From assembly GCF_000003605.2 (NCBI RefSeq), contig NW_003142306.1, positions 185,408 to 229,228 of the forward strand: a stretch of 43,821 nucleotides of DNA, given 5' to 3'. Under the pieces are notes generated by a model, which worked only from the letters and a program-made list of their open reading frames with translations, did no database searches and was not told where the DNA came from. A program made the translations under genes and the position numbers. Origin of the DNA: Saccoglossus kowalevskii (lineage: Eukaryota; Hemichordata; Enteropneusta; Harrimaniidae). Shown one piece after another: positions 8,265 to 43,821 of this stretch (positions are counted from its first letter, which is position 1; each line of letters starts with the position of its first letter).

Positions 8265-8270
8265 TTTATT
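8265..8270 (-). promoter_or_regulatory. Candidate poly(A) signal, gene 1
   Basis: AATAAA on the - strand, in a segment (GGGATAT…CTTTATT on the + strand) shared with gene 2 at 24093-24098. It implies a 3' UTR of about 730 bp. Other AATAAA matches occur nearby in this AT-rich DNA, so the choice rests on the conservation. Confidence 0.4.
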
Positions 8271-8518
8271 CTTATAATTTTTATTTTAAAATATATAGCA
8301 AAAATCTACATATTGCTAACTAACAGTCCAATATTTCAGTATCTGTCTAGACACAAATATTGGCAATTAACATGCACTCATACTTAAACTAATGTCAAAT
8401 TGATTGAACCATGGAACTCTTCAGCTTATTAGTGCAAGACATGAAAGCATATCAAAATATTCGTAAAAGAAAATTTTTAATCATGTACTAAAAATCTAAG
8501 AAATTTTTATGAAGACAT

Positions 8519-8622
8519 TATGTGGGTTTTACAATAAACTAGTCTAGATTTACCACTTGGAAATTGATCATTTGTATAAAAACACGAATAATAATGAGTT
8601 GTAGCATCCGTAGAAATACAAT
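8519..8622 (-). other. Conserved 3' UTR block, gene 1
   Basis: About 105 bp that match 24409-24512 below gene 2 far better than the flanks do (shared AAACTAGTCTAGATTTACCA, GATCATTTGTATAAAAAC and GCATCCGTAGAAATACAAT). It is non-coding and is probably 3' UTR. Confidence 0.65.
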
Positions 8623-8678
8623 GTCTCTTAGTTGACAGCAATACACATTCAAATAACAATTGTTTTGTTATCAAATAT

Positions 8679-8887
8679 TACTGTAAAATGACTAATTTTC
8701 ACTGGGTTTAAATTTGACAGATTTAGCATTTCAGGCATACTCGGTGGGTTCTAAATTCAGTTTTATCATTTAGATAATGTGTTCTATGCTCAATTTTACA
8801 TATTCACTGGGTTTTAATTTAGCACATTTTCCAGTCAGCGAAATAAGCAAAATTAAAATCTAGTGAATAATTAACACTTTTACAGTA
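8679..8887. mobile_element. Palindromic MITE in the gene 1 3' UTR
   Basis: The ends are inverted repeats (TACTGTAAAA… and …TTTTACAGTA) extending about 40 bp imperfectly through TTCACTGGGTTTAAATTT-like sequence. TA flanks fit a Tc1/mariner-type target. Gene 2 lacks it at the same place (24512 onward), so it inserted after the duplication. Confidence 0.65.
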
Positions 8888-8995
8888 TGCAATTTTATTT
8901 TTGTACAGGACTACTCTTAAAGTAGAATATGACCATGCATATACAAATCTCAAATACTTATATATCACAGTTGTGCACTGTAATAAATAATGCCT

Positions 8996-9138
8996 TCAAA
9001 TAGTTACACTTGTTCTTTCTTTTCTACCTTTCCTCCTCACAAGAAAAACTATGAGAAATGATATGATAATTATTGCAATGATTAAAAATACCAAAACTAT
9101 CCAGAATCCAACGTTCCAACTATCCCCATTTGATGCAT
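8996..9138 (-). CDS. Gene 1 terminal exon: transmembrane helix and tail
   Basis: The acceptor is TTATAG. SNGDSWNVGF is followed by a hydrophobic helix (WIVLVFLIIAIIIISFLIVF), then basic RRKGRKERTSVTI and stop (8996-8998). The tail is only about 15 residues, with no tyrosine motif. The C-terminal -VTI is shared with gene 2 and fits a class II PDZ ligand pattern. Confidence 0.88.
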
Positions 9139-12100
9139 CTATAAATGAAAGTAATAAAAGATTGATTAGTTGAGGCATAATAAGTATTAAAAAAATATAT
9201 AATTGCAGTAAGAAATTCAACGATATATCAGGTGGAGATTGTAGGATCAAATGAGTAGGTTGGTCCTTCTCTTTTCAAAAGACCTGACTTCGCTTCCTGT
9301 CCTTTCACTGATTTAGTCATGTGTTGGAACACAATGTTTGTCCTCTTTGTCATCTGTTCCTTTCCTGTTAATACATTATATTCAATTGAGCATGAGTTTA
9401 TTTCAAATTTACTCACCTGCAACTTGTATTGGACCAATCACACACGTCTGTGATTGGTTAAATGTTGAATGTTTGGACGTACAAGTGAATGTTGCACCGT
9501 TGATTTCGTTGCTTATGTTGACCTGCAGTGATAGTGCTGATTCATCTATATGAATGCCTTCTTGGTTGTTTCCATCTTGGTCCCATTGTAATATTGCTGG
9601 AGGATCACCGCCTTTAGATATACATGTCAATAACACAGTATCTCCATCAATGAGGTCTTTACTGGATTTTGCACATTGTGGATAATTATCTTTTGGTGGA
9701 ATGGCATCTATCAGGAAATAGTAAACCGGGGAATATAAATTTGCCAAGTTTTGTCACTAAAAGTAAATGTTTTTTTTTCAACATTTTGTGCTAAATTAAT
9801 ATTCTGCACTAAACTACTCTACTTACACATAAATAGAACTTAGACTCAAATGGCCGTCGAGATCTCGTTGATAGCGAGACAACCACAAAGACTTGTTCAT
9901 TGCCCTTCAAATAGTGTTACATTCATCCCCCATTATCAACTCTATCGTTGATGCGATAATGGTAGAGTACGAAACACTTTGAGAGGCAAAAGTAAGCCTT
10001 GTGGATCTCGCGCTCTCAACGAGATCTCGGCAATCAGTTCCGTCCAAGCTCGATCAGCATAATCACATGCAAAGCAACTGTAGATGCAAAAAATATATAC
10101 CATCTTCTGTAAATGCTATAAAATCCTGAAGTAATTTGAGTTATCCAGGATTAAAAACCAACATCTATCTTTCACGGAACACTGATACGAGCATCCAAAT
10201 ACAGAAATACAGCAGTAACCATCTTATGAATAACATGAAATTAGTGTCTACACATCAATCAGAACTTAAAATATTGCTATTTTCCATGGCACTCACTGGG
10301 AATGATACTATGACACAGCGTTTTGCCCAATGCACATCCTGCAATCTGCTCCAGGGGTGTCATAACTTGTATATGGTTTTGAGTAAACTTTATACTGTAT
10401 TTATATAAACATACGAAATTGGAGAATTCATCTTTGTCAATATTCATCACTTTGTTTACCATCACCAAATGAATAACTATAAGCATATTTACCCCCAATG
10501 TTCAGTTGCATGACGTTTGATGAGACCACTGGCAGTTCCTCTACACTTGATGTTAGTAAGCAATAATATGAGCCAGCATCAGGTTTACTGACTGAGTTGA
10601 TATTCAAGTTGAATTCACCAATGGATTGGTCACCTCCAATGAAGTACCTACAATATGCTCGATGTAATCATAATGGAGAAAATGTGTCTGGCATTATTAT
10701 ACAATATAGGTGAATACCCAATATTCAACTTCACAAATTGGACACTATTGATAGGCCAACTTATTTCCTTAAAGTGACATCCAAAAAAGTGAGTTGTGTT
10801 ACTGTAGGAGGTGATCATACCCATTACTGAAAATTCCATTAAATGAGATGTTTATCTGCATAGGTAGTCATTTAATTTATATTCACTACATGCATCCTTT
10901 ATATATTTTTTCAGTATGAAGTCATCATAAATTCTGTGATACATTATGTTTTTTTCTGAAACAATCTCGCTTTAACAGAATATGTTGGTGTTACCTAAAT
11001 TTTATTGAGACGTATATTATAAGTTATATATACTATATATATGTTGAGTAATTATAAAAACATTCCCATATTGTCATTATTCAAGGCTGTATTGTTTATT
11101 GGCAATTTCTCGAGGTATTTTGAATATACAATCGGGAAGGAATATACAATATGCTGTAAACACTTTAGCGTGAAGTACTGCCGATTAAATAAATATATCA
11201 AATTGATTTACTGAAACGTACCTTGTGTCGTCATTGTTCATGGTGGTGTCACTACTGATCACCTGACCATCTCTAATCCAATGAATGGTGCCTAATTTAT
11301 TTTGAACGGTACAGTCCATGGTGATATCCTCTCCTACCTTAGCATTTCTGTTGGCTTCTTTTGAGAACAGTTTTATTTCTGTCTGCAAGACTAATGACAA
11401 ATGAATCTATTTAACACATATGCAAACAATTTGGAAAGTGGTTTTGGTAGCCCATATATGTTATAATTAATTGTTTGTAGTTTTTTAAGAACACAGCAAA
11501 TTGTAACAAATACAATGAAAAAACAGTGGTACGATGTGTGAACAGTCATTGCTTCTTGGCTGTATGTCGACTTGTCCCACTTGTTTGATCATGTATTGAA
11601 ATATGTTTGTGAGGCATTGTTTGTTGGTAATCATTGAGACAGACAGAATTTGTTTGCTTACTGATATATTTATTGTTTTGGGTGTTTGACTAGTAATTCT
11701 GTTTTACTGATAATGCATTTAGTAAGTATTGATTATGTATACGGTTATTTACCTCATTTGTAATATTACTTTTAATTAGTATTGACGATTAGATACAACT
11801 ATTACTTACTGTCTACTGCAAGTGGTCCAACCTGGCACGTTTCCTGGTTTTGATGTGTTGGATGGGTTGATACACAGGTGAATACGGACCCCTGTAATTC
11901 TTCTGTTATAGTCAGCACTAATCCAACTCGAATTTCTGTGTCGGTATCCAAGGTGATACCATCTTGCTCTTCACCGCCATCTTGGATCCAACGTAATATT
12001 GCTGCCGGTTCGTCTCGTTCAGTTTCACATACTAAGATTAGATTTTCTCCAAGTATAAGTGTATTTACTGTACTTGGTGCACATGTTGGAACCCTAACAG

Positions 12101-15100
12101 GAACTAGAATATAAAAGCTGGTGTTATAATAACTGTATAAAAACAACAGATATTGGATATTGTGTTTGGGTTTCCATGTTGATATTGTAAATGAAATTAT
12201 GTTTATTCGACGGTACAGTAAATTGCGCTGAATGTACTAAAAATCGAAAAAGCATGTGAAGGAAAGACAACGCCCTTATGCCTTATTAACCTGATGCGTT
12301 TGTTTTGTACTATTCGCTTGATAAATAGGGTCAAATGTTCAGGCAAATATGTCTGTCATTGCCTCGTAATCTTTTATTGTAATATTTTAATCTAACAACA
12401 CAAGAAGCAAGACAAATGCTATCAGTGTGCAATATTGAACAATGAAACATTTGTTCAGATAGCCACTAATTCCTATTTTGCTGTCGTAATGATATAGCTA
12501 AATCAGATAGTACACATTATATTAAAACATGGTCATACATTCAAATGATTGTTTCGATACATATTTCTATACACCATGCATATTAAGCAATCCATATTAC
12601 AGTGCATTCCACAATTAAAAACTATTAATGAACATGACAAACTTTATATATCACTGGTTGCATTGGTATTTGTAGATGAATAGGCTAACATAGTTAGTTA
12701 GGGTGATCAATTCAAGTATATTTCTGAACAATCTAGAGGAAAGCAAACAAAAGAAAACCTGGTGATTTAGTTTGATTCAACCATTTAACGTCATTCTTGC
12801 CCAGCACAAAGACGGTTGATTGATGTTGTCGTCTCCATTGTTCAAAAAACAAGTGCCTCTCATCTGGAATGTTACAAATTGTTTTATTTCAATACTAAAT
12901 TATCATAAAACAGATGCGGATTTTGTAATGTAATTTATGACAAAACGTGTATTCATGTGTAAAATACTCTCATGAACATTTTGTTAACACAGTGTGTTAG
13001 TACATGCTTTGAATGAGGGTTAGTGATGAATTGTAAATAGTGCAACCATGTCAATTGTTATCTCATTTGTTGTAAATGCAGCATTACGTTCTGTGTTCAC
13101 TTATCGTTTCTATACATTCCATATGATGGACGGGGTCGATTCGTGCTTACGTTCGATGGGAGGTTCAGTTTGCTCTTCAGTTGGTTGCTCGGTTGAAAGT
13201 GCAGTTGGAGTTTCGGTTGGACCTACGGAAGCATGTCCAGTTAGACGTTCGGTTGGAACGTCAGTTGGTCGTGAGGTTGGGCGTTCCAAAACTGTCAGAA
13301 CAGCTGTACTGCTGGTTATTTCTGGATGACCATTGGCGGATGTCACTGAACACACGTAATTACCAGCATGCTCTGGTCTCACTGACTCAATCTTCAAATT
13401 GTAATCAACTGATGGAATTGGACTATTTATGGTGTACCCGGATGTAGATGTTGCAATTGTAGAATCAGAACTTATGTCTTCACCGTTCAATGACCATACT
13501 AACTGCCCTGCTTTGTTACTGACAGAACAGAATAGCGTGACGTCACTGCCTTCGTGTTCCTCAATACTTGAAGGCTCAGTAAGAAAATCTTGTAGCTCTA
13601 TCAGAAATTTCAATATACATTATTTTAAAAACTGTCACACGTAATAACAAGTAGTAGTATCAATTAAACAAATTACAAAGTGATGTCGTCATAACAAATG
13701 CAAACCATCCAGCATGGTACTGTCATCTGCTATTAGTGAAAGATAAATTGAAAGTACCTGGCAATTATAAATCGACATATGCGATGTTCTTCGCATACTG
13801 TTTTCACACATGAGAGAAGAATCCTAGAAAGTTAACCTTTTAATAGCATTTTCTCAATGTCATTTCCTGTTGGTGCAAAGTCTTACCAAGATATATATGA
13901 CTGATGAAAACAGCCTTTATTATATTTACTTACTTTCAACTGTTAGAAGAGCGGTATCACTGGTTATTTCTGGATGCCCATTGGCTGACGTCACTGAACA
14001 CACGTAATTACCAGCATGCTCTGGTCTCACTGACTCAATCTTCAAATTGTAATCAACAGAAGGAGTCGGACTGTTTATGGTGTACCCGGATGTAGATGTT
14101 GTAATTGTAGAATCAGAACTTATGTCTTCTCCATTTAATGACCATACTAACTGTCCTGCTTTGTCACTGACAGAGCAAAATAGTGTGACGTCACTGTCTT
14201 CCAAGATACCTTTGCTAACAGGTTCAACACCGAATGACTGTAGTTCTGTCGGAAAATCATACATTATATCATACAACTATATTTTTTACTAAAAGTCTGT
14301 TTTCTCATTTTCCGAACTTGTCTTTAAAAAAATGTGATGCTTCACAGTCAATCGCATGTGGCATGTTGTGTTATACGCACCCACAGTGTAATGACTACCA
14401 GCAACTCTATAAGATATATTATTAATTTAACTACCCTTTAATTAATCTCTTATTATGCCAATTTAAATGAAGAGCAAAGTTGAGTATTTTTTTTAATATT
14501 CAAATAAATAGCTACGTAAATGAACTTTGGATTATTAGTACATACCAGTAAATCATATAAATCTGAGTGGCATTCATCTGTTGCTGACCAAAGCGCCATT
14601 AAGAATCTAGTTGTTTCATAGATGTTAATGAAAATTAACATTTTATAGATTATAGAATCCGCAGAAAAATATCAAATTCCTAGAAAATTTTAAGGGCTCT
14701 ATCAATAAAACATGTTTAGAAACTGATCAAAACTGACAGCTGGTATTGTTATAAATACCTTAATGTCATGTATTTAATAATTCACGTAGTCAAGTATTAC
14801 AATTAGAATTAGTTTAGAACATTTTTAGATTGTTGCAAGCCATCTACATTTCACTGGACTTCATAACGTTGATGACAGAAAATGTTATGACCGTTTAAAT
14901 AATTAATTCATCAAGCCACTATTCATCCATCGATATGCAAAATATTCTTGTTCTAAGTTCTACATGAAAATTATGAATCAAATGAGATCTGCTCAGCAAG
15001 CACTCATCAAATTCTTTCACTTTTTCAGATATTGTAGATGTTAAATTTGTTAAACAAACAACATATTCCAATAAAAACATTTAATAACAAGTTATTGCTT

Positions 15101-18100
15101 GGTTGTGGTATAACTTTTAATTTTCTCATAGTACATGTACTCATTCGAATCTTCAACATATGAAAGTTTTTGACGTAACATCGATTTTAATGTGAATTAG
15201 GAGTTTTCATAAAATATATAGTTTGATAAGTTTTAAAACAATTCTTCTATGAAAACAATGTGTTTTAATTTACTTTCTGAAAACCTCTATTACAACAATA
15301 ATCCTTAGAATCATAGATTATGCCTTGGTTCGTGCAAAGTGTGAAAACATGAGAATGATTCTAGTCTACTGCCATCTACTATCACAAAAGTGCAATCTTG
15401 AATGCTATTAATTACAATGTATTAACTATTGTATTTGATCGACGACTAATTGATAAATTATTACCTTCAATTTAATTCGGGCATCATATATCTTAGCACC
15501 ACCTACGAGGAGTTAACTTTCCAATCTGAATACATCCCATTAACTACATTATAACTTCTTACCTTTCACTGTCAATAACGCTTGACTAGGTCCAATTTGA
15601 ACACTGTTGCCGGAAGCTGTTACACGACAAGCATATGTCCCAGCGTCTTGAGTGTCTGCGTTTACAATTTGTAGATTATATTCTCCATTGTTTTGGTTCC
15701 CAGTAATTGAAAACCTGTTATCACCATTGGTGACTGTGGCGTCGCTGGTAATGTCCTCACTGTCCTTTGACCAAATGACAGTGCCTTCNNNNNNNNNNNN
15801 NNNNNNNNNNNNNNNNNNNNNNNNNNNNNNNNNNNNNNNNNNNNNNNNNNNNNNNNNNNNNNNNNNNNNNNNNNNNNNNNNNNNNNNNNNNNNNNNNNNN
15901 NNNNNNNNNNNNNNNNNNNNNNNNNNNNNNNNNNNNNNNNNNNNNNNNNNNNNNNNNNNNNNNNNNNNNNNNNNNNNNNNNNNNNNNNNNNNNNNNNNNN
16001 NNNNNNNNNNNNNNNNNNNNNNNNNNNNNNNNNNNNNNNNNNNNNNNNNNNNNNNNNNNNNNNNNNNNNNNNNNNNNNNNNNNNNNNNNNNNNNNNNNNN
16101 NNNNNNNNNNNNNNNNNNNNNNNNNNNNNNNNNNNNNNTAATAACAGTAGTAGTAATGAGTCATTAGCTCTCTTAAAATTAGATGCGTTAATTATCTTCT
16201 GTTTGATTTGAAATATGTATGTAACTGTTTTTTACTATTTATTATAGCCCACTTGAAATGTGCAAATAATACTATTGTTACTGACATCAGATATTAAAAG
16301 ATACAAATGCAATTCTTTGAAATGAAAAACGCCTAATGATAAGAAACAATGAGCGGAGAAACAAGCAGGAGACAAAGAATTTGAAGAGATGGACAAACAC
16401 ACTAGCAGAAATATTTGAGATTCGTGGAAGGCAGATATGCCTGGAGTACCATGATTGATGACGTTACAAGAGATGTAAAATACAAGTCAACACATACCCG
16501 TCACTGTCAATGAAACTTGTTCAGATATGGCACCGTTATCGCCTCCTCCCTGTGTTATCGTACATTGGTAGTTCTTGGCATCGTCATGCCCAACATTCGT
16601 AATTCGTAAATCATATGCTTCGCCGTCGGCGGTAGATTTATATACAATTGAATAGTCAGCATTTCCTGTGCTCATTGTTGTGTCAAAATTAAGTGGACTC
16701 CCATCTTGCAACCACGTGAGAAAGCCTTTTTTCTCAGCAACTGTGCAATGGAATGTCACGGTGTCTCCGACCACAGCCGATTGGTCAGTGGGCGTAACCG
16801 TGAAATGTTGAGCGGCGAGCACTGCAGAAAGCGATTCAAACCGAGGTTAAAACAAACTTGGAAACTGTAAAATTGTCATTTGCTAATTTGATTGATAAAT
16901 CAATACCCCTTTGTCTATTTTAAATAAAATGTAATACTTTAAATTTCATTTGTCGTTTAGCTGAGTTCACAATAGCTCATGGTTAGTTGGTTCAAACTCA
17001 ACCCATACTTGAAACAGAACTCTCAGTCCGCCTCAACCTTCATAGCATGTAGTGTTTAACTTAAAATATACAAACTGCAGTATTTCAAGATATTAATGGT
17101 GTGCAATATAAATTATATGAATTAAAACATAACATTTACAATCTCCATATGAATATAATGTTTACAATCCCCATTTAAATACAACTGTATCAGTTTGGAA
17201 TAAAGCATAAGAGAAAAGCATTGATTTCCTGTTAGCTATCAAACCCTTATGGGTACATTAACCTAGTTAAACTATGGGTATGGGAAAGTTTGCTGGAATA
17301 CACCCAAGAACTGAAAAATGGCGAACAAAACCAATAATCATAAAAACGTACGGTGTCCTTGTGAATAAGTTTACATTGTGTTATAACAAAAATTAAAACG
17401 CATGTCAATAAAAGAATGTATATAAAGCTAAATTGTAAAAATATAGTCAGCTAAATTATTAATATCTAAATTTTTGCTTAAAATTGAATATGATAATTGT
17501 TTTATATTTCTGACAAACCAATACATATAAATGTTCCTTATCTTCAAATAAATAATAATCTCATTTTACTGAAATCTTTAGTTTTGTGTGTCTACTATAA
17601 AAAATTTTTCCAAATTATGGTTGTAAATGCATCTTTTCTTCACAGTGTAACTCACATAAACATCTTGTGAAATTGTATTACAATTAACCGTTTGTATTGT
17701 ATATTATTAATCGTTTTTGTTCAAGTAACCTAATTTGTTAAATCTGTTAATATCTTGGTGCCATTTGCTGCTACAAAATTTATAATTAAATGTTTCTATT
17801 GTTGTTTTTTACCTTTTAATATTGTCCTGAATGTGTAGTGCCCACATTGCAATTGACATCACCAATTGCAATAATTAACACATGATACATCCTTGTTTTA
17901 CTTCTGTTTTCTGATGAATGGTATTGTTTATATAATTATGTATGCTAATGTTAGTGGTTGACTATATGTTTCAAATTATTTAACATTTTTAATCATGTTA
18001 TTTGCAATAATTTATATAATGAACCTACTCTTCATATATTCTCTAAAGCCTTAGCAAAATCTAGGAAATATGCATAATAATTTTGTTTGTTTGTTTTTAA

Positions 18101-18999
18101 ATATCATGGATAAATGTTTTTAATACAAATATCTGGCATGTTGATTTTATTCTGAATCCTGACTAATTACTTTTCGGCATTATATTTTCTTCAATATACT
18201 TTTATAATATTACTTGACACTGGGTTGTAGCCTGAATATATATATATATATATATAGATGTAACCCCGGAATTCATGAATACGAGTTATAGTACATACAT
18301 TGCATATACATTAGATCTATATAAAAATAATTAAATAATTTAACTAGGAAGTCAAATAATATATTTATTCTTATGAGTTTTAAACAAATAACATGTGAAG
18401 ACTTGTCACACTTTAAACTTGCTGATAATTAAGTTTTTCGCCCTTGTTAAAATGAAATAATTTTGAGTTCGTGCGTTTTCCATCAATAACATTGACCTTT
18501 CGAATCACGGGTTTCCATTTCACCGCCCCACCCTTAGTACTTTATTGGGAATAAAAATGAATGGCATTGAATACAGTGTTTTAATTTGGTTTTAAATGAC
18601 TTTCAAGTATGCCAGTTATTTATAGGCTACATTTATTCGATTAATGCATGTCAGTGCCATCTGAACACACCAAAAATAGCAAATGAATACAGCACCACGC
18701 ACATGTTAGACTGACCCGCTCGTCAGCTGTCTCGAAATATTCTTTCAAGCTTTGTCGAATCTTTGAAAAAAAAAACGTGAATAGTCGGCCCTGAAGATCA
18801 TTCTTTAGTAACATAGATTAGGTTTATAATAAGCAACAAGTAGGCGTGGAATCAACTATGTTCGTCTTTACCTTTGACCGCGCTACGACTTGGAGGCGGT
18901 AAAATAACAAATAATGATAGAAAGTGTTAACTTACCTAAGTTACAAACTAATACAGAGTATACAACACACGTAACACTCCCACTTATTGGAAACATCAT
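8996..18999 (-). CDS. Ig receptor gene 1 (multi-Ig type I membrane protein)
   Basis: Exons on the - strand in order: 18999-18936 signal peptide, 16821-16498 Ig1, (gap)-15563 B, 14245-13934 A, 13597-13151 A+stalk, 12103-11810 C, 11390-11222 and 10647-10493 V, 9707-9417 D, 9138-8996 TM/tail. Borders are AG/GT and the phases agree. If B is 312 bp as in gene 2, the product is about 836 residues: signal 1-21, seven Ig domains, a stalk between the second A and C, then TM. Ig cores show Cys…Trp…Tyr-x-Cys. The style (VAEKKG…LTWLQDG, NGEYNLQIVNAD) recalls nephrin/Kirrel adhesion proteins. The ligand is unknown. The N gap removes the N-terminal third of B and some intron. It is nearest to gene 2, which has an extra B-A pair and no stalk. 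Confidence 0.85.
9417..9707 (-). CDS. Gene 1 exon D (membrane-proximal four-cysteine Ig)
   Basis: 291 bp, phase 1-1. PPKDNYPQCAKSS, VLLTCISKGGDPPAILQWDQDG, GATFTCTSKHS, QTCVIGP. N-glycosylation sequons include NIS and NQS. It follows V directly, as a C2 domain does in two-domain adhesion modules. Confidence 0.9.
9853..10112. repeat. Foldback element in the D-Vb intron of gene 1
   Basis: The arms pair with each other (CGAGATCTCGTTGA… with …TCAACGAGATCTCGG, then ACTTGTT…GCCCTTCAAA). A related element lies in the same intron of gene 2 (25725-26175), but in the opposite orientation between collinear flanks. Confidence 0.65.
10493..10647 (-). CDS. Gene 1 exon Vb (second half of V domain)
   Basis: 155 bp in all three genes. 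It enters in phase 2 (completing Arg, then YFIGGDQSIGEFNLNINSV), has the canonical KPDAGSYYC, and exits in phase 1 after QLNIG. With Va it makes one V/I-like Ig domain. Confidence 0.88.
11222..11390 (-). CDS. Gene 1 exon Va (first half of V domain)
   Basis: The acceptor is CATTAG, phase 1. A nearer TTGCAG at 11383 is rejected because it would shift the frame against the other two genes. It encodes EIKLFSKEANRNAKVGED…MDCTVQNKLGTIHWIRDG and ends …DDT with two bases of Arg at ACAAG|GTACG (phase 2). Confidence 0.85.
11810..12103 (-). CDS. Gene 1 exon C (four-cysteine C2-like Ig)
   Basis: 294 bp, phase 1-1. PTCAPS…, LILVCETERDEPAAILRWIQDGG, GSVFTCVSTHP, ETCQVGPL. Besides the Ig Cys pair it has an N-terminal and a C-terminal Cys, as exon D does, which suggests a second disulfide and a common origin of C and D. 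The pattern G-(E/D)PPA-x-LxW-x-(Q)DG resembles the second (C2-set) domain of nephrin/Kirrel proteins. Confidence 0.88.
13151..13597 (-). CDS. Gene 1 exon A + Thr/Glu/Pro stalk
   Basis: An A-type Ig domain whose exon runs past the usual donor into about 45 residues rich in Thr, Pro and Glu (RPTDVPTERLTG…PTALSTEQPTEEQTEPP), ending at GAAC|GTAAGC in phase 1. The stalk DNA is a degenerate 12-bp repeat. It probably forms an extended, possibly O-glycosylated spacer between the distal A domains and the C-V-D membrane-proximal part. Confidence 0.88.
13934..14245 (-). CDS. Gene 1 exon A (no stalk)
   Basis: The acceptor is CCGACAG and the donor GAAA|GTAAGT, 312 bp, phase 1-1. Core: VTLFCSVSDKAGQLVWSLNG, …YNLKIESVRPEHAGNYVCSV. 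The usual Asp of DxGxYxC is His in all A domains here. The first 20 or so residues (VEPVSKGILEDSD) differ between copies while the rest is nearly fixed. Confidence 0.9.
15563..15788 (-). CDS. Gene 1 exon B, cut by the assembly gap
   Basis: Visible part: EGTVIWSKD, NGDNRFSITG, NGEYNLQIVNAD and GTYACRVTASG, ending in the phase-1 donor AAAG|GTAAG. Strands A-B with the first Cys fall in the N run that starts at 15789. It is closest to the two B exons of gene 2 (31427-31744 and 33745-34056). Confidence 0.82.
15789..16138. other. Assembly gap
   Basis: 350 N. It hides the 5' part of exon B and its acceptor. An extra exon in the gap cannot be excluded, since its true size is not known from the sequence. 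Confidence 0.99.
16498..16821 (-). CDS. Gene 1 exon Ig1
   Basis: The acceptor is CTGCAG and the donor ACGG|GTATG, phase 1-1. It begins VLAAQHFTVTPTDQ and has the Ig core FHCTVAEKKGFLTWLQDG and DDAKNYQC. It is the membrane-distal domain, and VGDTVTFHC is typical of strands A'-B. The ortholog in gene 2 is six residues shorter in the C'-D region. Confidence 0.88.
18236..18258. repeat. (TA)n microsatellite
   Basis: About ten TA units in intron 1 of gene 1. The rest of this intron (16822-18935) is AT-rich. Parts of 18430-18880 match intron 1 of gene 2 (36370-36770). Confidence 0.85.
18936..18999 (-). CDS. Gene 1 exon 1: start and signal peptide
   Basis: The start is ATGATG (18999), with A at -3. 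It encodes a hydrophobic leader, MMFPISGSVTCVVYSVLVCN, and ends L-G|GTAAG in phase 1. The matching exon of gene 2 ends with the same VIYSVLVCNL-type run, which supports the start and the donor. A large intron of about 2.1 kb follows. Confidence 0.85.
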
Positions 19000-19116
19000 T
19001 GTTCTGTGATCTTGACAGGGAAATACATCACAAATATAGATTAATTATCATGGATAACATTGTGACCCGTCGAAATAATACTTCATACTGAATCAGCTAT
19101 TGTAATTGATCTACAT

Positions 19117-24060: not shown

Positions 24061-24092
24061 ATATGGACTAATGGTGACAGTTTTGGGATATC

Positions 24093-24098
24093 TTTATT
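24093..24098 (-). promoter_or_regulatory. Candidate poly(A) signal, gene 2
   Basis: AATAAA on the - strand in the block shared with gene 1 (8265-8270). It would give a 3' UTR of about 525 bp. Confidence 0.4.
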
Positions 24099-24620: not shown

Positions 24621-24763
24621 TCAGATAGTTACATTTAGTGTTTTTGTTCTATGTTTCTTTCTCACGAGAAGAACTGTTAGAATTATTAAAATAAGTATTG
24701 TAATAATTAAAAATACCAAGACTACCGCGAATCCAACACTCCAGCTATCGCCTTTTGGTGTAC
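24621..24763 (-). CDS. Gene 2 terminal exon: transmembrane helix and tail
   Basis: TPKGDSWSVGF, hydrophobic FAVVLVFLIITILILIILTV, then RKKHRTKTLNVTI and stop. It has the same short basic tail and -VTI end as gene 1. Confidence 0.88.
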
Positions 24764-33700: not shown

Positions 33701-36700
33701 TGCCAGTCTGGCTACCTCTCATTAACTACAGTATAGCGCTTTACCTTGCACTGCCAATGATGCTGTATCAGGACCAATTTTTGCACTCTGACCGGAAGCT
33801 GTTACACGGCATTCATATATCCCAGTGTCTTGAATGTCTGCGTTTACAATTTGTAGATTATATTCTCCATTATCTTGGTTCCCAGTAATTGAAAACCTGT
33901 TATCACCATTGGTGATCGTGGCGTCGCTGCTAATGTCCTCACCATTCTTTGTCCAGATGACAATGCCTTCTTTATCGCTGACGACACATTCCAATACAGC
34001 TGAGTTACCAGCCAGTACAGTAATGTCACTTGGAATCGTATGGAACCTTTGAGGATCTGTTGGATAATAATAATGAAAGAAGACATGATTTTTTCACGAA
34101 ATATGCCATGAGATATTGAAATAGACAACTGAAATTCTTTGAAAACATCCTAATAACAGAAAAAAATGGACAGAAATGGAAACAAAAAGTGAAGTTCATT
34201 GACGATCTGAAGAGGTGGACAAGAACATCTCTGCAAATTATATTTCGATTCATTATACATACCTGTCACTGTCAAAGAAGCTTGTCCGGAGATGATCGCG
34301 CTATCACCACCTCCATGTGCTACACTACATTGGTAGTTCTTGGCATCATTATGCTCAACATCCATAATTTGTAAATCGAAAGCTTCTCCGTCAGAAGAGG
34401 TACTGTAAATAATTGAATAATCACGATTGGTTGTGTCCACTGGACTTCCATTTTGCAACCACGTGAGATGGCCTTTTCTTTCAGCAACCGTGCAGTGGAA
34501 TATCACAAGGCCTTCGACCATAACCGATTGGTCAATGGGCGTGACCGTGAAATGTTGAGCTGCGAGAACTGTAGAAAAAATGATTCAAACCCGTTTCAAA
34601 AGTTAAAACAATGAGTTCAAATCATCTGAAATATGTTAAATGTAAATTATCAAAATTTTACCAGCGTTTTAAAACATTATATTTGTAAAACATAAATTCA
34701 AAGTCGTTCTTGTTTGCGTGTTCTAGAACTTTTTATATAGGGTTGGGAATGCAACTACGTAATTGTTTAAAACATAACTGAAAAATGTGAGTTTGTAGTG
34801 TTTTATATAAGGCAATTTTATAACACAAAATAACTAAACCGCGGATAAAATACAACTGAACTGTTTGTTTAGCAGCTATTATACAGTTATAATTTCCTTT
34901 AGCATGCTCTTTATTTCGTAATGAGAATGTTCATGAACAGCATAATCGTGATTTCAAATTTTTTGTTCCATTGTGTGAAACAGGGTTTTACAAAATCATA
35001 CAGTTTGAAAATGAAATATCTCCACCACATCGACTTACATACTTCCACAAATTACAGCTAAAATCTAAATTAAAGATCTGATATTTACCAATTAATAAAA
35101 AACCGAAACATTAGAAAATATTAGAAACTCACTTGGTCGTCATTAGCAATGGACCCTGATTGCTGGACATCTTTTTGTCTGTATGAGTATATTTATGCGT
35201 GTGTCTGTCAGTTTGTCTGTTCCACTGATGTCTCAAGAACCATACATCGTTTTTTGAATGAAACTTGGTACATAGATGAAATTATATTAATTACCTAATT
35301 TGCATAATGATTAGTAAATTTTCGGCTTTTCCACTGATATCTCAAGTACTAATCATCATATTTCAATGAAACTTGGTACATGTACATATATGTCATAGGA
35401 CACTGCACAGACCTGATAGTTTCTAGGGTAATATCAGTAAATATTAATTTAAATATTAATTACCTAATTTGCATAACGAATTAATTTTCAGCTTTTGATA
35501 TTTTAAGTAGTAAGCATTACATTTCAATCTAACTTTGTACATAGCTCGTCAACGACTATGCAGAAATTAATTGTTTTGGGATAAATATGTGTTCATATTA
35601 AACACCTAATTTATATAATTAGTTAATTTTCGGCTTTTCCACTGATATCTCAAGTACTAATCATCACATTTAATCAATTAATTTTCGGCTATTCCACTGA
35701 TATCTCAAGTACTAATCATCACATTCAATGAAAATTGGTACATAGATCCTCTAGGACTATGCAAAGGCCTGATTAGTTTTGGGATAAATTATTGTGCATA
35801 TTAATAACTTAATGTGTTAATAATATATTTCTAAACTATGCAGAGAGCCAAGTAGTTTTCGGTATATATTTCGCATATTAATCACCTAGTTTGCATAATT
35901 AATAAATTTTCAACTTTTACACTGATATTTCAAGTAATAATCATCACATTTCAATTAAACTTTGTATATAGATGCTCTAGGACACTGCACAGACCAGATT
36001 AATTTTGGGTTGAAATCTGTACATATCAACTACCTAATTTGCATAATTAACCAATTTTAAGCTTTCACACTGATACATAAAGTACTAATTATTCCATTTC
36101 ACTGTAACTTGGTACAAATATGCTCTAGGACAATGTACAAATCTGATTAGTTTTGGGTTAAAATCTGTTCATTTTAATTTCCTGATTTGCAGAATGGATA
36201 CCGCCTAGAATTGTGTGTGTCAAATTTAATTACGCGAAAATAAAAGTTAAATAAATTCCATATACATGGGAAAACTAAACTATATAAAACTAAATTAAAA
36301 AAATTGAATAATGTTAATATTTTCACGAGTTCTAAACAAATAGCATGCGGAGACTTGCCACACTTTTAACTTGATAATAATTAGGTTATTCGTTAATTTT
36401 TCATGCGATTCATGAGCATCTATTTCACCGCCTACCCTTAGTACTTTCCTGACGATCGCGTGATATTACATTGTTTTAAGCGGTTTTAAATGACTTTCAA
36501 GTATGCTAGTTATTTAGAGACTACTCTTATTCGATTAATGCATAATATTATCATCGAAACACAGAAAACAACAGCACACACTTTTTATGCTAAAGCGCTT
36601 GTCAGTTGTTCCAGGATATTCATAGGCTTCGTTGAATTTTTGCAAACACTGAATAGTCGGCCCTGATAGTCATTCTTTATCAACATAGATGAAGTTTATA

Positions 36701-36883
36701 ATAAGCAACACGTAGGCGTGGCATGGTCGACAAAAAACTATACTCGTCATCACTTTTCACTTCGTTGCGACTGGGAAGTGATGTAATAAAAAGAATGATA
36801 GGAATTGTTAATTTATCAACCTACTTACCTAAGTTACAAACTAAAACAGAGTATATAACGCATTTAACACTCGTCGCAAACAT
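24621..36883 (-). CDS. Ig receptor gene 2 (nine-Ig type I membrane protein)
   Basis: Twelve coding exons on the - strand: 36883-36829 signal, 34568-34263 Ig1, 34056-33745 B2, 32432-32121 A2, 31744-31427 B1, 30134-29823 A1, 29441-29130 A0, 28525-28238 C, 27843-27666 and 26745-26591 V, 25605-25315 D, 24763-24621 TM/tail. The lengths sum to 2982 bp, exactly 993 residues plus stop. Approximate domains: signal 1-18, Ig1 19-120, B 121-224, A 225-328, B 329-434, A 435-538, A 539-642, C 643-738, V 739-849, D 850-946, TM about 955-977. Compared with gene 1 it has an extra B-A pair and lacks the stalk. It is complete and open, so probably functional. It looks like a cell-surface receptor or adhesion molecule; the ligand is unknown. 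Confidence 0.9.
25004..25024 (-). other. Possible 21-nt chimeric mini-exon or relic, gene 2
   Basis: It lies between exons D and TM. It has an acceptor (TTCACAG) and a donor (GAAG|GTTAGT), and is phase 1-1, so it would add seven residues (…RAMKLE) next to the membrane. The acceptor side matches the TM-exon acceptor of gene 3 (40721) and the donor side matches the D-exon donor of gene 1 (9417). It may be spliced or may be only a recombination scar. Confidence 0.35.
25315..25605 (-). CDS. Gene 2 exon D
   Basis: 291 bp, phase 1-1. PPEDNYPQCAISSK, VLLTCMSKGGDPPATLQWDQDG, GATFTCTSKHS, QTCVIGPLEV. It is the membrane-proximal four-cysteine Ig domain. Confidence 0.9.
25725..26175. repeat. Foldback element in the D-Vb intron of gene 2
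   Basis: Excluding the retroposed insert, the order of segments is the reverse complement of the element at 9853-10112 in gene 1 (CATCTACAGTTGCT near the left end here, complement near the right end there). Confidence 0.6.
25917..26117 (+). mobile_element. Retroposed insertion with poly(A) tail and target duplication
   Basis: It is flanked by 16-bp direct repeats AATGTAGGAAAATGTA (25901-25916 and 26118-26133). It ends with GTGAATAAAAAAAA…, an AATAAA signal and an A-rich tail. There is no coding potential in 200 bp, so it is likely the 5'-truncated 3' end of a LINE or another retrocopy. It interrupts the foldback element shared with gene 1. Confidence 0.85.
26591..26745 (-). CDS. Gene 2 exon Vb
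   Basis: 155 bp, phase 2 to 1. YFIGGDQSIGEFNLNINSV, KPDTGSYYCLLTSSVEELP. It is very close to gene 1 Vb. Confidence 0.88.
27082..27129. repeat. Perfect 14-bp palindrome with short direct repeats
   Basis: CACAGTCCCTCTAT (27089-27102) and ATAGAGGGACTGTG (27109-27122) are exact inverted repeats around a 6-nt loop. TACCAAG flanks both sides (27082-27088, 27123-27129), as a target duplication would. Confidence 0.75.
27666..27843 (-). CDS. Gene 2 exon Va
   Basis: The acceptor is TTCATTAG and the donor ACAAG|GTATG (phase 2). LQTEIRLFSKKDNIYAKVGE, MDCTVQNKLGTIHWIKDG. It is three residues longer than in gene 1 at its end (DENYVTR against DDTR). Confidence 0.85.
28238..28525 (-). CDS. Gene 2 exon C
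   Basis: LPTCAPSTVS, VCETERDEPAAILRWIQDGG, GSVFTCESIYP-like, TCQVGPL, phase 1-1, 288 bp. The DNA is nearly identical to exon C of gene 1, with few differences in about 200 bp, mostly synonymous. Confidence 0.88.
28975..29100 (-). pseudogene. Decayed stalk segment of gene 2
   Basis: It is homologous to the gene 1 stalk, including the donor context CCCATCGAAC|GTAAGCACGA. Read in the frame that reaches that donor it meets a TGA and loses the Thr/Pro register through an indel, so it is probably intronic now. Confidence 0.65.
29130..29441 (-). CDS. Gene 2 exon A0 (stalk lost)
   Basis: DLQDFITEPLSIMEHKGDDV, LFCSVSNKAGQLVWSLNG, AEHAGNYVCSV. Its 5' half pairs with the A+stalk exon of gene 1, but its 3' end, GTAGAAC|GTAAGT, is like A1/A2, so the exon stops before the stalk. 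Stalk remains persist just downstream (28975-29100). Confidence 0.88.
29823..30134 (-). CDS. Gene 2 exon A1
   Basis: ELQSFVVEPVSTNCLESSNV, LFCSVSNIAGQLVWSLNG, PEHAGNYVCSV, 312 bp, phase 1-1. An extra Cys lies in the variable N-terminal segment (TNCLES). Confidence 0.9.
31427..31744 (-). CDS. Gene 2 exon B1
   Basis: VRDPQSFLTTPNDTTILAGN, MECAVKDKEGIVIWTKSGVDI, NGEYNLQIVNAD, then SGVYGLYTCRV. The region before the second Cys has two extra residues compared with B2 (SGVYGLYTC against QDTGIYEC). 318 bp, phase 1-1. Confidence 0.88.
32121..32432 (-). CDS. Gene 2 exon A2
   Basis: ALQSFDVQPASTVILERNDV, LFCSVSDKAGQLVWSLNG, AEHAGNYVCSV, 312 bp, phase 1-1. It differs from A1 mainly in the first 25 residues and in ITSPTQLVDYN. 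Confidence 0.9.
33745..34056 (-). CDS. Gene 2 exon B2
   Basis: DPQRFHTIPSDITVLAGNSA, LECVVSDKEGIVIWTKNGEDI, NGEYNLQIVNADIQDTGIYEC, phase 1-1. This is the distal copy of the duplicated B-A pair. Confidence 0.9.
34263..34568 (-). CDS. Gene 2 exon Ig1
   Basis: The acceptor is CTACAG and the donor ACAG|GTATG, phase 1-1. LAAQHFTVTPIDQ, FHCTVAERKGHLTWLQNG, NDAKNYQCSVAHGGG. The internal Met of SVMVEG is not a start; the frame runs back to the acceptor. Confidence 0.88.
35150..36220. repeat. Tandem repeat of about 150-165 bp units in intron 1 of gene 2
   Basis: About six to seven degenerate units follow the order CCACTGATATCTCAAGTACT, AATCATCACATTTCAATGAA, ACTTGGTACATAGATGCTCT, AGGACTATGCA…CCTGATTAGTTTTGGGATAA, ACCTAATTTGCATAATTA, TTTTCGGCTTT. 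A TGTCTGT-rich head lies at 35175-35225. It is absent from intron 1 of gene 1 and belongs to the same family as 700-1210. Confidence 0.9.
36829..36883 (-). CDS. Gene 2 exon 1: start and signal peptide
   Basis: ATG at 36883, then FATSVKCVIYSVLVCNL-G|GTAAG, phase 1. The hydrophobic leader is homologous to exon 1 of gene 1. An intron of about 2.3 kb, filled by tandem repeats, follows. Confidence 0.85.
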
Positions 36884-37006
36884 CGTTGTTCCGTCACCTG
36901 GAAAGAGACATGCAACACAAATGATACACTTTAATAAATATGAATAGCATATTAACATATCGAAATAATACGTCACACGGAACAACTTATTGTAACGTAT
37001 CTGAAA

Positions 37007-37036
37007 GTACGGACATCATGTCGCGATACACGGCGT
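37007..37036 (-). promoter_or_regulatory. Conserved upstream block, gene 2
   Basis: Identical over 30 bp to 19117-19146 upstream of gene 1, and 124 bp before the start codon (118 bp in gene 1). The similar spacing supports a promoter or 5' UTR role. Confidence 0.45.
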
Positions 37037-37549
37037 GCAACGTGACCTTTGACATAACAAGTCGTTGGATTACACGGATGGTCGTGTTATTACTGAAATA
37101 ATATACGATCCGTTAAAAAACTCTCTCGATATGTCTTGTATCGATATGTGTATAGTAATTATCGTGTTATGATTGACAGACAATCACATGATTCTTACGG
37201 GCTGTCAAACATGATGTCTTGGCATAGGTGAAAATCAAACAATATCAATGCAAGCATCATGAATGTGGAGGTTGACCGAATTATTATATTGGAGTTAATT
37301 TATTGTTTTAAGATGAGTTGTACTGTGTAGATAGCCACACTCTGTAACATTATATTACCGACCTAGAAATATGATTTCATTCTAGAAGGTTGATGAATAC
37401 AGTTTGATACATCTGGGTTGGTTCTAATTGGAACGCATGGGAGTGTTAACACGAGAGCACGTACTTTTGCCCACGTCAGCATATGACAAACTACGAATAC
37501 TACTTTTTTATTTTTTAAACATATATGTTCTGGCACATTGTTTCATTTT

Positions 37550-40500: not shown

Positions 40501-40570
40501 GAGGGTCTATGGTGAAACCAGATAACTTATCATTTTAACTTCTTGAGGTAGAAAATATCAATTCATTAGA
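37550..40570. other. Intergenic region between Ig genes 2 and 3
   Basis: No gene is supported. It holds a MITE (38944-39107), a short (CA)n tract at 38578-38595, a 17-bp direct repeat (GTACACCGAGTTCGTTG at about 39560 and 39592) and a C-tract near 40431. The 3' UTR of gene 3 should start at 40572 and run leftward. The 3' UTR block of genes 1 and 2 is not evident here. Confidence 0.55.
38944..39107. mobile_element. MITE with terminal inverted repeats of about 32 bp
   Basis: The left end TTAAAGCGGGGGAGTCGTCA… matches the complement of the right end (…GACCCTGCCGCTTTAA) through GTCGTCACCTGCGCA. The borders are TTAA on both sides, also readable as TA target sites outside TTAAAGC ends. It is 164 bp long and non-coding. 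Confidence 0.85.
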
Positions 40571-40572
40571 CA

Positions 40573-40721
40573 TTACACATGACTACTTGGTAAAATTCTT
40601 GGAAATGATAGCTTCCACTTTAAGAGAATAACTAATAGAAATACTATAATTAATATGGTAAGAATTAGAATTATCAATGTCACCACGAATTCAATGTACC
40701 AGTCATTTCCATTTGGCATAC
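40573..40721 (-). CDS. Gene 3 terminal exon: transmembrane helix and divergent tail
   Basis: The acceptor is TTCACAG. MPNGNDWYIEF, hydrophobic VVTLIILILTILIIVFLLVI, then LLKWKLSFPRILPSSHV and stop. The tail is unlike genes 1 and 2; -SHV fits a class I PDZ ligand pattern. Confidence 0.83.
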
Positions 40722-43617
40722 CTGTGAATACAAACAAACAAACAACAGGGACCTGTAAATACATAAATACAAGTTTGCAATTATGTTCAATGATATATTT
40801 AATGACGTAGTTTCATGTAGAGCAGGGTGTGGTCACTCTTTTACAATACCTGTTCTAAACTTGGAGGTACAAGTAATCTTGCTCTCAGTCATTTGATTCA
40901 GTAATGTATTATGGCTATCAGTGTTTCCTTGTTTTCTATCGTTGCGTCTTCGTGGAATGTAAATATCCTTCACGAATTATGACATTGTATTGCATTGAAA
41001 CATGATTTAAACTCTACTCACTGGTAACTTTCAATGGTCCAATTACACACGTATGTGATTGGTTAAATGTTGAATGTTTGGACGTACAAGTGAATGTTGC
41101 ACCATTGATTTCGTTGCTTATGTTGACATGCAGTGATAGTGTTGATTCATCTATATGAATGCCGTCTTGGTTGTTTCCATTTTTGTCCCATTGTAAAGTT
41201 GCTGGAGGGTCACCACCTTTAGATATACAGGTCAGTAGCACCGTATCTCCCTCGATGACGTAATTACTGGATATTGTGCATTGCGGATATATACTTTCTG
41301 GTGGGATGGGGTCTGCCAGAAAATAGAAAACCGATATTTATTTTCGTTGTTATGTGAATAAGTAATAATGACGCTCAGTACATGAGTACTTGTGTATGTT
41401 TTTACTCAATTTATGAACAATGTGTTTGTTGAAGGCTGTCCATCAAACCTATTGTCGTTGTAGTTTCATAGTTTCAAAGTGAATGGAAAAATATTATGTT
41501 TACCCGCAATTTGTAGTCGAATATCTTTTGATGAGACCAATGGCAGTCTGTCCACATACGATGACAGTAAACAATAGTATATCCCAGCGTCGTGTTTACT
41601 GACTCTGTCGATATTCAAGTAATATTCACCAATGGATTGGTCACCTCCAATGAAGTACCTAAAATGTATTTAATGTGATCATAGTGGTTATTGCAATTTG
41701 TGAAGGTCATAGTGGAATTATGTTTATCAATAACATATTTGGGTTCGGAAAAGAATGGTGAAATGAAGAAATATAATCACATGCTATAAATCATTGCACT
41801 ATTAAAAATATGTACCGATAAAACATATATCCAATTTTAACTTAAACCTAAACATACCTCGAGAATTCATGTTCGTTATCTTTCATGACAGTATCACTAC
41901 TGATCACATGACCATCTCTAATCCACTGAATGGTACCCAGCTTATTTTGAATGCTGCATTCCATGATGATATGCTCTCCAACTTTGGCGTATTTCTCTGC
42001 CTCCTTTGAGAACAGTTTTATTTCAGTCCGTGAACCTGTGATTAAATGTGTATGTATGTAAACAATTGGGCGTTTTATGTGGTGTACTTTGTATTTGGCA
42101 ATGTGGAAATGTTATTCAATGCAAAACCTAATGTAAATTAACTGCAATTATTTGATTATCAAATAGCAAAACGTTTAGGCTAAACTTTAAGATATTCTCA
42201 CATCTCGTTAGTGTCAAATGTAATGACAATGACGAGTTTTCGCCAGAACATTGTCTTCCACATTTTCTGGCCACCGATTGCATTCATACCGTGTAAATAA
42301 ATGCATTTTATGGGACAGACCAAACAAAGACTTACAATAAAAACGGATGGGATAGTGACACGTGATCATATTTGCTGTGCCGTGGGTTACATCACGTCAC
42401 ATCGTTTTGAGTTCGAGTAGATTGGTGAGTCTACAGACATTGAAGTTCACATTTAAATAATAAAAACGGTACAACTTACTGTCTACTTCAATTGGTCCAA
42501 CCTGACATGCCTCTTTGATATGAAGTGTTGGATGTGTTGATTCACAGGTGAATACTGACCCCTGTAGGTGCTCTGTTATGGTCAGGAATAGACCAACTCG
42601 GATTGCTGTGCTGGTTTCTAGGGTGATACCTTCTCGCACGTCACCGCCATCTTGAATCCAACGTAATATTGCTGCTGGTTCGTCTCGTTCAGTCTCACAC
42701 ACTAAGATTAGATTTTCTCCAAGTATAAGTGTACTTACTGTACTTGGTGCACATGTTGGAGCCCTAAAAAGAACTAAAATATGTTTTCCGATTATCTTTC
42801 TTGTTCACAATTTCGAAATCTAAATTTCGATGATATGAATCAATGCGGAGACACAATCGACATGACAGTTCTTTAAATATACGTTACATATCCATATATA
42901 TTGTACACTTAGGTGTTGTTATTCTAATGTCCTTCTAATAAATTATGTATCTATCAATCATTGACTACAGATAGCGAGAGATGAATTATTACAAATAAAA
43001 ATGCAACTTCGCAATGGCAAATTGTGTGAATGGAAGCTAAACGTGCTTACGTTGGGTGGCGTTTTCAGATGAGTGTTCTGTGGTACTCTCAATTGTTCGT
43101 TCGGTTGAACGTTCGGTGACACTTTCGGTCGAAAGTTCAGTGTGGCGTTCGGTGGCACGTACAATTGTAACTTCGATGCTACTTTCGATCGGCCATACAA
43201 CTGGATGTTCATTTAGATGTAAAGTTTGATAGTCAGTGCCACGTGTGGTTGAATGGTCGGTGGTACTCCTGATTGGTCGTTCAGTTGGAAGTTCAGTGGG
43301 GTGTTCGAAAACTGTCAGAACAGCAGTATCACTGGTTATTTCCGGAAGACCATTGGCGGATGTCACTGAACACACGTAATTACCAGCATGCTCTTGTCTC
43401 ACCGACTCAATCTTCAAATTGTAATCAACTGATGGAATCGGACTATTTATGGTGTACCCGGATGTAAATGTTGAAATTGTAGAATCAGAACTTATGTCTT
43501 CACCGTTCAATGACCATACTAACTGTCCTGCTTTGTTACTGACAGAACAGAATATCGTGACGTCACTGCCTTCCAGGGCATCAGTGCTAGCAGGTTGAAT
43601 AACAAATGACTGGAGCT
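40573..43617 (-). CDS. Ig receptor gene 3 (3' part; 5' end beyond window)
   Basis: Visible exons on the - strand: 43617-43051 A+stalk, 42773-42480 C, 42035-41858 and 41658-41504 V, 41312-41022 D, 40721-40573 TM/tail. All are AG/GT with the same phases as genes 1 and 2. It has the longest stalk (about 85 residues) and a different tail. Upstream Ig domains and the signal exon should lie past 43821. V and C are more diverged than between genes 1 and 2. Confidence 0.85.
41022..41312 (-). CDS. Gene 3 exon D
   Basis: 291 bp, phase 1-1. DPIPPESIYPQCTISSN, VLLTCISKGGDPPATLQWDKNG, GATFTCTSKHS, HTCVIGPLKV. Confidence 0.89.
41504..41658 (-). CDS. Gene 3 exon Vb
   Basis: 155 bp, phase 2 to 1. YFIGGDQSIGEYYLNIDRV, KHDAGIYYCLLSSYVDRLP, LQIAG. 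Confidence 0.87.
41858..42035 (-). CDS. Gene 3 exon Va
   Basis: The acceptor is ATCACAG and the donor TCGAG|GTATG (phase 2). SRTEIKLFSKEAEKYAKVGE, MECSIQNKLGTIQWIRDG. 178 bp, as in gene 2. Confidence 0.85.
42480..42773 (-). CDS. Gene 3 exon C
   Basis: 294 bp, phase 1-1. APTCAPSTVSTL, VCETERDEPAAILRWIQDGG, GSVFTCESTHP, EACQVGPIEV. The four-cysteine pattern is kept. Confidence 0.88.
43051..43617 (-). CDS. Gene 3 exon A + long stalk
   Basis: A-type Ig (LQSFVIQPASTDALEGSDV, SVSNKAGQLVWSLNG, QEHAGNYVCSV), then about 85 stalk residues with a TERxTE-like period (RATERHTELSTESVTERSTE…). The donor is CAAC|GTAAGC, phase 1. The open frame extends upstream of 43617, but the CTGACAG acceptor and homology set the exon edge. 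Confidence 0.88.
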
Positions 43618-43821
43618 CTGTCAAAAAATCACACAATTTAGTCGAAACATAATCACACAATTTGTCTTTGCGGAACTGTCTGATGCGAATACAGCTCAGC
43701 CAAACATAACGCCTGTTGCATGAAAGTTTTATTTTGTAAAGACACACATAAAATTGCCAAGACTTTAGGTTAGGTCAAAATAACCTAAATGCCTAATTAA
43801 CAAGCTAGAAAAATAAGATTA

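Follow-up and report, generated by a model that had tools for sequence, protein, structure and literature searches.

The Saccoglossus kowalevskii contig NW_003142306.1 (C3325), which belongs to an assembly of 572 Mb in 4,830 contigs, carries a tandem array of related genes whose predicted products contain several immunoglobulin (Ig) domains. Our analysis was centred on a window of 43,821 bases of this contig (C3325:185408-229228), and positions given without a contig label are positions in that window. The initial annotation of the window had proposed at least three paralogous genes lying head-to-tail on one strand. Both window strands were scanned for exons in phase 1 that combine the cysteine/tryptophan pattern of Ig domains with fair splice sites, and 20 order-1 Markov copies of the minus strand served as the null. 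All 15 clusters identified were on the minus strand; the plus strand and the 20 Markov copies gave none. Thus, the exons are not a product of chance, and the three genes were located on the minus strand in the arrangement proposed. The Ig domain numbers given for them, seven in gene 1, nine in gene 2 and a partial set in gene 3, were also correct.

Gene 2 is complete. Its 12 exons form a single open frame of 989 residues, and all 11 introns are GT-AG. The order is a signal-like exon, Ig domains A, B, C, B, C, C, D, E and F, and a transmembrane (TM) exon (Table 1). Gene 2 has the features of a type I transmembrane protein of the immunoglobulin superfamily (IgSF), namely a signal-like exon in frame, nine Ig_3 stretches identified by Pfam and a single TM helix, where the signal and TM calls are based on hydrophobicity only. 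Gene 1 contains seven Ig domains in the order signal-like exon, A, B, C, C with a stalk, D, E, F and TM exon. The signal-like exon and domain A join in frame, as do, separately, the exons from C through TM, and a run of N at 15789-16138 hides the 5' part of domain B. The signal-like exon of gene 1 lies within an 800-bp block that is 70% identical to its counterpart in gene 2, and an AATAAA sequence is found about 100 bp downstream of the TM exon. Gene 3 is partial, with four Ig domains. The exons for C with its stalk, D, E, F and TM join in frame, and the 5' part of the gene is lost in a run of N that starts directly after the window.

Several further details of the initial annotation can be judged from these structures. 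A signal exon had been described for all the genes; a signal-like exon was found in genes 1 and 2, and the corresponding part of gene 3 falls inside the run of N. The TM exon with a very short tail was found in all three genes, with tails of 13-15 residues. The neighbours differ in domain number, stalk and tail as described, the stalk being present in genes 1 and 3 and missing from gene 2. The description of one symmetric phase-1 exon per Ig domain fits eight of the nine domains of gene 2 and fails for domain E, a membrane-proximal I-set domain that is encoded by two exons separated by a phase-2 intron. In all seven genes inspected by eye (genes 1-4 and 6-8), this intron splits domain E within an arginine codon, and domain E of gene 9 is likewise in two pieces. 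The split domain E is a useful signature of this family.

Table 1. Exons and related features of genes 1-3, in window positions; genes are listed from the complete one, each in the direction of reading.
Gene	Feature	Position	Strand	Basis
2	Signal-like exon MFATSVKCVIYSVLVCNL	36829..36883	-	hydrophobicity, in frame
2	Ig domain A	34263..34568	-	
2	Ig domain B1	33745..34056	-	
2	Ig domain C1	32121..32432	-	
2	Ig domain B2	31427..31744	-	
2	Ig domain C2	29823..30134	-	
2	Ig domain C3, without stalk	29130..29441	-	
2	Ig domain D	28238..28525	-	
2	Ig domain E, first exon	27666..27831	-	
2	Ig domain E, second exon; 99.4% identical to gene 1 across 52 codons	26591..26745	-	
2	Ig domain F	25315..25605	-	
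2	Apparent recombination joint: gene-3-type intron and acceptor abut apparent remnant of gene-1-type F exon end	25003..25030	-	remnant by eye
2	TM exon; 13-residue tail with NVTI end	24621..24763	-	
1	Signal-like exon MMFPISGSVTCVVYSVLVCNL, donor GTAAGT	18936..18999	-	hydrophobicity; putative signal function
1	Ig domain A, membrane-distal	16498..16821	-	
1	Ig domain B, visible 3' part	15563..15788	-	
1	Ig domain C1	13934..14245	-	
1	Ig domain C2 and T/P/E-rich stalk; stalk sequence aligns with gene 2 intron	13151..13597	-	
1	Ig domain D, C2-set type	11810..12103	-	
1	Ig domain E, first exon; ends in phase 2	11222..11378	-	
1	Ig domain E, second exon; inside tract 10439-10663 (96-99% identical to gene 2)	10493..10647	-	
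1	Ig domain F, C2-set type	9417..9707	-	
1	TM exon; 13-residue tail with SVTI end	8996..9138	-	
3	Ig domain C and long T/S/E stalk; 24-bp repeat at 43098-43153	43051..43617	-	
3	Ig domain D	42480..42773	-	
3	Ig domain E, first exon	41858..42035	-	
3	Ig domain E, second exon	41504..41658	-	
3	Ig domain F	41022..41312	-	
3	TM exon; tail of about 15 residues with SSHV end	40573..40721	-	

Other sequences in the window lie around these exons. On the plus strand, a glycoside hydrolase family 65 match (PF03632) was identified in the frame 1616-2314, and more long frames follow to 5835; together they probably represent a gene that converges on gene 1. The interval between genes 1 and 2 holds a minisatellite with a 19-bp unit in about 16 copies (22771-23072), short tandem and interspersed repeats occur in the first intron of gene 2 (35284-36195), and a dispersed repeat at 38943-39108 is 90-92% identical to two other sites further along the contig.

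The array was surveyed by domain searches with 100 kb added to the right of the window. The initial annotation had advised a search of the flanks for further copies, and the array indeed goes past the window, reaching C3325:334,610 or beyond. No fewer than nine related genes were identified at about 194-335 kb of the contig, of which eight are minus-strand genes and one is a plus-strand gene. Three more I-type domains were found at 40-41.5 kb. These counts are lower bounds because the left flank (145500-185407 of the contig) and several other stretches read N. In the whole genome, 33 of 42 C-domain matches and 33 of 40 A-domain matches were on this contig. It also held 13 of the 34 F-domain matches, which were 13 of the best 14, and 4 of the 13 G-domain matches, which were the best four. 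Within this one genome assembly, close paralogs are therefore adjacent and few are found elsewhere, which is the pattern of a tandem array. Matches outside the array were also recorded. An F-type and D-type exon pair is located at C1741:89023-90185, its F-type exon being 47% identical to gene 2 F, and this pair is possibly a dispersed member of the family. Contigs C127, C2456 and C1466 contain open frames of 429-2,918 amino acids with Ig matches that are distantly F-like, in long multi-Ig exons or intronless genes. A very large one-strand run of Ig matches at C3771:13-482 kb is possibly a titin-like or hemicentin-like locus.

The genes of the array differ in architecture. Genes 8 and 9 contain I-type domains, E in two pieces, F, G, a TM segment and a long charged frame. 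Gene 6 contains E, F, G, a TM-like segment and a tail, gene 5 contains F, G, TM and a tail with its 5' part in a gap, and no G was visible in gene 7. Genes 1-4 have an additional C2-set domain, D, and are without G. Gene 4 is the largest of these, with 16 Ig domains free of frameshift, one of which is without both canonical cysteines (C3325:242715-242404), and one frameshifted Ig exon (C3325:245719-245419). Its tail has a frameshift within a lysine-rich run. The Ig domains of gene 4 mostly alternate between C-like and B-like, and a 33-domain tree separates these into two moderately supported groups (86/85 and 82/79). The frameshifts and the domain without canonical cysteines in gene 4, together with the several gaps of N, could indicate a cluster of decaying pseudogenes or artefacts of assembly. 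However, the window genes are open through every joined exon with AG/GT borders, and the ratios of nonsynonymous to synonymous substitution (dN/dS) reported below are well below 1, so that we regard this explanation as most improbable; for the window genes it was rejected on the in-frame joins throughout.

The cytoplasmic tails also fall into different types. The tails of genes 5-9 are long, with R, K, D, E, S and H accounting for 59-66% of the residues; the gene 4 tail is less charged, with 44%. A YY motif followed by a basic cluster is common to the tails of genes 6, 8 and 9, and the gene 5 tail aligns at the YY site with one Y and a basic cluster. The gene 9 tail contains a PPPY motif. The pattern [ILVS]xYxx[LIV], which resembles an immunoreceptor tyrosine-based inhibitory motif (ITIM), was found in one of the nine tails (gene 7), with the tails of genes 4-9 cut by eye and perhaps incomplete. 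No exon in the window resembled the tail pieces of genes 4, 6 or 8, which were the three tails used as queries. The stub tails of genes 1-3 are probably derived, since genes 4-9 have longer tails.

Several observations indicate how the array changes. In gene 2, positions 25016-25623 match gene 3 at 85% and positions 24621-25018 match gene 1 at 68%, and the two matches meet at a site that corresponds to 15 bp within the F exon of gene 1. By this comparison gene 2 looks chimeric, as would result from unequal recombination. From the mafft alignment of gene 2 with gene 3 only the F-to-TM part was used, its D-E part being out of place. At the stalk position in genes 1 and 3, alignment by eye found the donor of the other C exons to be absent, with the reading running on to a downstream donor that is still present in the gene 2 intron; as read from this alignment, the stalks are apparently made through splice-site loss. 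Genes 1 and 2 have in common a tract of about 225 bp that is 96-99% identical and extends beyond exon E2 into the intron, and only 1 of the 52 codons of E2 is different between them. The longest identical run in exons A, C1, D, E1, E2 and F of these two genes was 31 codons in 498 (permutation p 0.002).

The C exons gave a similar signal. For the 21 pairs among seven C exons, the mean nonsynonymous (dN) and synonymous (dS) divergences were 0.46 and 1.29 in codons 1-16 (one saturated pair was excluded from the dS mean), and 0.05 and 0.32 in codons 17-102. The dS of gene 4 C was 0.25 (bootstrap 0.13-0.40) with gene 3 C and 0.30 (0.18-0.50) with gene 1 C2, and it was 0.43-0.68, with wide intervals, with the other four C exons. 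For gene 4 F and D the dS with genes 1-3 was 0.73-1.09, and A was saturated. These values fit a process of conversion that would keep the core of the C domain uniform, most clearly in two of the six gene 4 pairs. On this evidence, the array changes through duplication and unequal recombination and most likely through conversion as well.

Selection on the domains was estimated from paralogous exons. The dN/dS ratio was finite in 42 of 49 same-class exon pairs and was 0.16-0.55 in all of these; six of the remaining pairs were saturated and one had a dS of 0. A GY94 likelihood fit of 10 chosen pairs gave dN/dS values of 0.01-0.58; where gene 4 was one partner of an A-domain pair, dS was very large. 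No dN/dS above 1 between paralogs was found in the 42 finite exon pairs or the 10 GY94 pairs, all of which are exon averages. The GY94 omega of the distal A domain was 0.02 for genes 1 and 4 (dS saturated) and 0.43 for genes 1 and 2; this domain is strongly constrained in the former pair and looser in the latter. The exon-average pattern is unlike that of a diversifying recognition surface, and strong selection driving the paralogs apart was rejected on the low dN/dS and the apparently homogenised C core. The expression "fast-changing" in the initial annotation suits the architecture of these genes, and it does not suit their amino-acid sequence, which is without excess change. Its proposal that diversity is generated by duplication and conversion holds in so far as there is a tandem array, recombination and likely conversion. 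It does not hold for diversification of a recognition surface, for which the ratios are too low and the conversion-like signal works in the wrong direction by homogenising C.

These results bear on the possibility that the array codes for immune or allorecognition receptors with extracellular domains diversified by selection and conversion. The tandem arrangement with the closest members mostly on one contig, the variable domain number, stalk and tail, and the chimera joint would all be in keeping with such receptors. However, every finite dN/dS was below 0.6, genes 1 and 4 show constraint on the distal A domain, and the conversion-like signal homogenises. Low dN/dS does not refute immune use, because exon averages are blind to a few selected sites and to selection among alleles. 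Known systems offer comparisons here, which we take from excerpts of two sources. The Alr genes of Hydractinia form clusters of related IgSF transmembrane genes, of which Alr1 and Alr2 are highly polymorphic (PMC11067881), and the clustering of related IgSF transmembrane genes is a likeness to our array. ITIM and hemITAM (a related activation motif) sequences are reported in Hydractinia candidate Alr genes and in Botryllus in the excerpted text of PMC12065747, in contrast to an ITIM-like pattern in one of nine tails here, which may tell further against immune receptors. According to the same excerpts, Botryllus fuhc-tm is a type I protein with three tandem Ig domains, a short tail and known allelic variation, evidence for balancing selection is limited to 5 of its codons, and fester and uncle fester are without any known signalling domain (PMC12065747). 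Going by these excerpts, fuhc-tm is similar to the present genes in its type I form, tandem Ig domains and short tail, although it has three Ig domains and genes 1, 2 and 4 have 7 to 16 or more; and both it and fester suggest that weak selection or missing signalling motifs would be compatible with an immune role. An immune or allorecognition role is thus plausible and possible, with no support from selection or tail motifs, and we consider the version diversified by selection and conversion rather unlikely. No multigene Ig recognition locus in hemichordates was described in the titles and abstract openings among the open-licence papers listed.

The relatives of known structure are general receptors for adhesion and guidance. 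For each query the best 60 matches among solved structures were considered. For gene 2 A-D, the matches listed were headed by DCC, Dscam, Kirrel1 and Robo2, and gene 2 B1 aligns with Kirrel1 and SYG-1. Among the best 60 of 754 chains for the D/F profile, Dscam, neurofascin, Robo2 and SYG-2 lead and are followed by CADM4 and nectin-3, with many antibody chains; SYG-2 is fourth, and it is the highest chain with a stretch passing alone. The relatives of gene 8 were led by Dscam, DCC, titin and Robo2 among the matches listed, and its E-F region aligns with domains D1-D2 of SYG-1 (E 1.6e-11). Pfam families also over the cut-off for gene 2 were Unc5 N-terminal, Ig_6, alphaherpesvirus gE, Izumo-Ig and 2B4; these narrower Ig families are read as fold-level matches because the scores sum over repeated Ig domains.

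These matches raise the possibility of a Neph/nephrin-like adhesion family with a structural or developmental function, for example in epithelium, nerve or the hemichordate glomerulus, that was amplified in this lineage without a recognition role. The pairing of I-set and C2-set_2 domains is as in Kirrel and SYG-1/SYG-2, the three alignments with Kirrel1, SYG-1 and SYG-2 are consistent with such a family, and so are dN/dS values well below 1 and the ends SVTI, NVTI and SSHV of genes 1-3, which we take to be PDZ-like C termini. However, Dscam, DCC, Robo and titin score as high as the Neph-type chains or higher in at least one list, and turnover of domain number, stalk and tail together with a chimeric gene would be unusual for a fixed role. 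Nephrin has a fibronectin type III (FN3) domain after its Ig domains. No FN3 was found among the best 25 of 29 Pfam families of gene 2, on which membership of the nephrin family was rejected. The variable domain number, the split E and the tails rich in arginine and serine (RS-rich) are further differences, the last of these to our knowledge not being a feature of nephrin. A family of this kind is a tentative alternative that we would not favour.

The array is, in our judgement, probably a tandem, putatively lineage-specific set of type I transmembrane IgSF adhesion or recognition receptors of an enteropneust hemichordate, as predicted from its sequence. This explanation is broad; the immune and the structural explanations above are narrower versions of it, and their probabilities overlap with its own. 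As to the animal, the mitochondrial contig (17,037 bp) fits an enteropneust hemichordate better than an echinoderm, amphioxus or vertebrate: AAA is used at conserved lysines, AGA at a serine and ATA at sites compatible with isoleucine, and its protein genes follow a chordate-like order, with COX1 identified by Pfam and the other genes by eye. Several points weigh against the receptor explanation. First, adhesion is suggested by likeness among very common folds, and titin and many antibody chains appear in the same lists. Secondly, genes 4-9 were described without in-frame splicing, and their tails were taken as open frames. Third, for the conversion component, only one of the six gene 4 C dS intervals (gene 3, 0.13-0.40) is fully below the F and D values, one touches them and four overlap. 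Lastly, the first part of the C exon comprises 16 codons only, and constraint at synonymous positions may partly explain why dS is low in the core of this exon.

If the array is a set of adhesion or recognition receptors, its history and action may be outlined as follows. The ancestral plan would have comprised N-terminal I-set domains, the split I-set E, the C2-set F, the I-set G, a TM helix and a long tail rich in R, S, K, D and E; it would be kept in genes 8 and 9 and partly in genes 5-7, and we infer that it is the older architecture. Genes 1-4 would be a separate branch that has D as another C2-set domain, is without G and carries repeats of a B-C module of two domains. Multiplication of this module would give the nine Ig domains of gene 2 and the at least 16 of gene 4. 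Domain D may be older than the array, because contig C1741 also holds a D-type and F-type pair. The products would be long rods at the cell surface whose distal domains make trans contacts, be it with the same paralog, with a different one or with a conserved partner. Long-tailed members would couple contact to the cell interior, and short-tailed members may serve as decoys or as ligands in adhesion, anchored perhaps to PDZ proteins by their SVTI, NVTI and SSHV ends. Unequal recombination and splice-site turnover would alter reach and tail, and purifying selection and homogenising conversion would hold the domain sequences.

The R/S-rich tails and the PPPY motif of gene 9 presumably resemble the tails of angulins (ILDR1, ILDR2 and LSR). 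In the excerpted text of PMC5547134, ILDR1 binds TRA2A, TRA2B and SRSF1, and splicing-related effects are common to it and ILDR2 but do not extend to LSR; angulins are accordingly Ig receptors with a tail linked to serine/arginine-rich (SR) proteins. As far as these excerpts go, angulins have one extracellular Ig-like domain in contrast to the array of Ig domains here, and the likeness is in composition only. Membership of the LSR family was rejected, as Pfam LSR had no match in the tails of genes 4, 6, 8 and 9 or in part of the gene 5 tail, and because of these five unmatched tails or tail parts the likeness to angulins is a lead only. By analogy with angulins, the array could be a contact-recognition locus in which the SR-like tails of long-tailed receptors link contact at the surface with nuclear signalling or the processing of RNA, and short-tailed chimeric paralogs with a homogenised C core are ligands or decoys. 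We regard this as a speculative and very unlikely version. If it were true, self and non-self would be read from domain number and reach and not from hypervariable residues.

The array is larger than the three genes first described, and it is informative on how receptor genes turn over in the hemichordates, a group that adjoins the echinoderms and chordates. Its stalks, stub and long tails, chimera and one uniform core offer a concrete route by which receptor length and signalling capacity may be altered. Should the array prove polymorphic, it would become a candidate for a recognition locus; otherwise it would be a clear case of adhesion-receptor turnover that mimics an immune locus.

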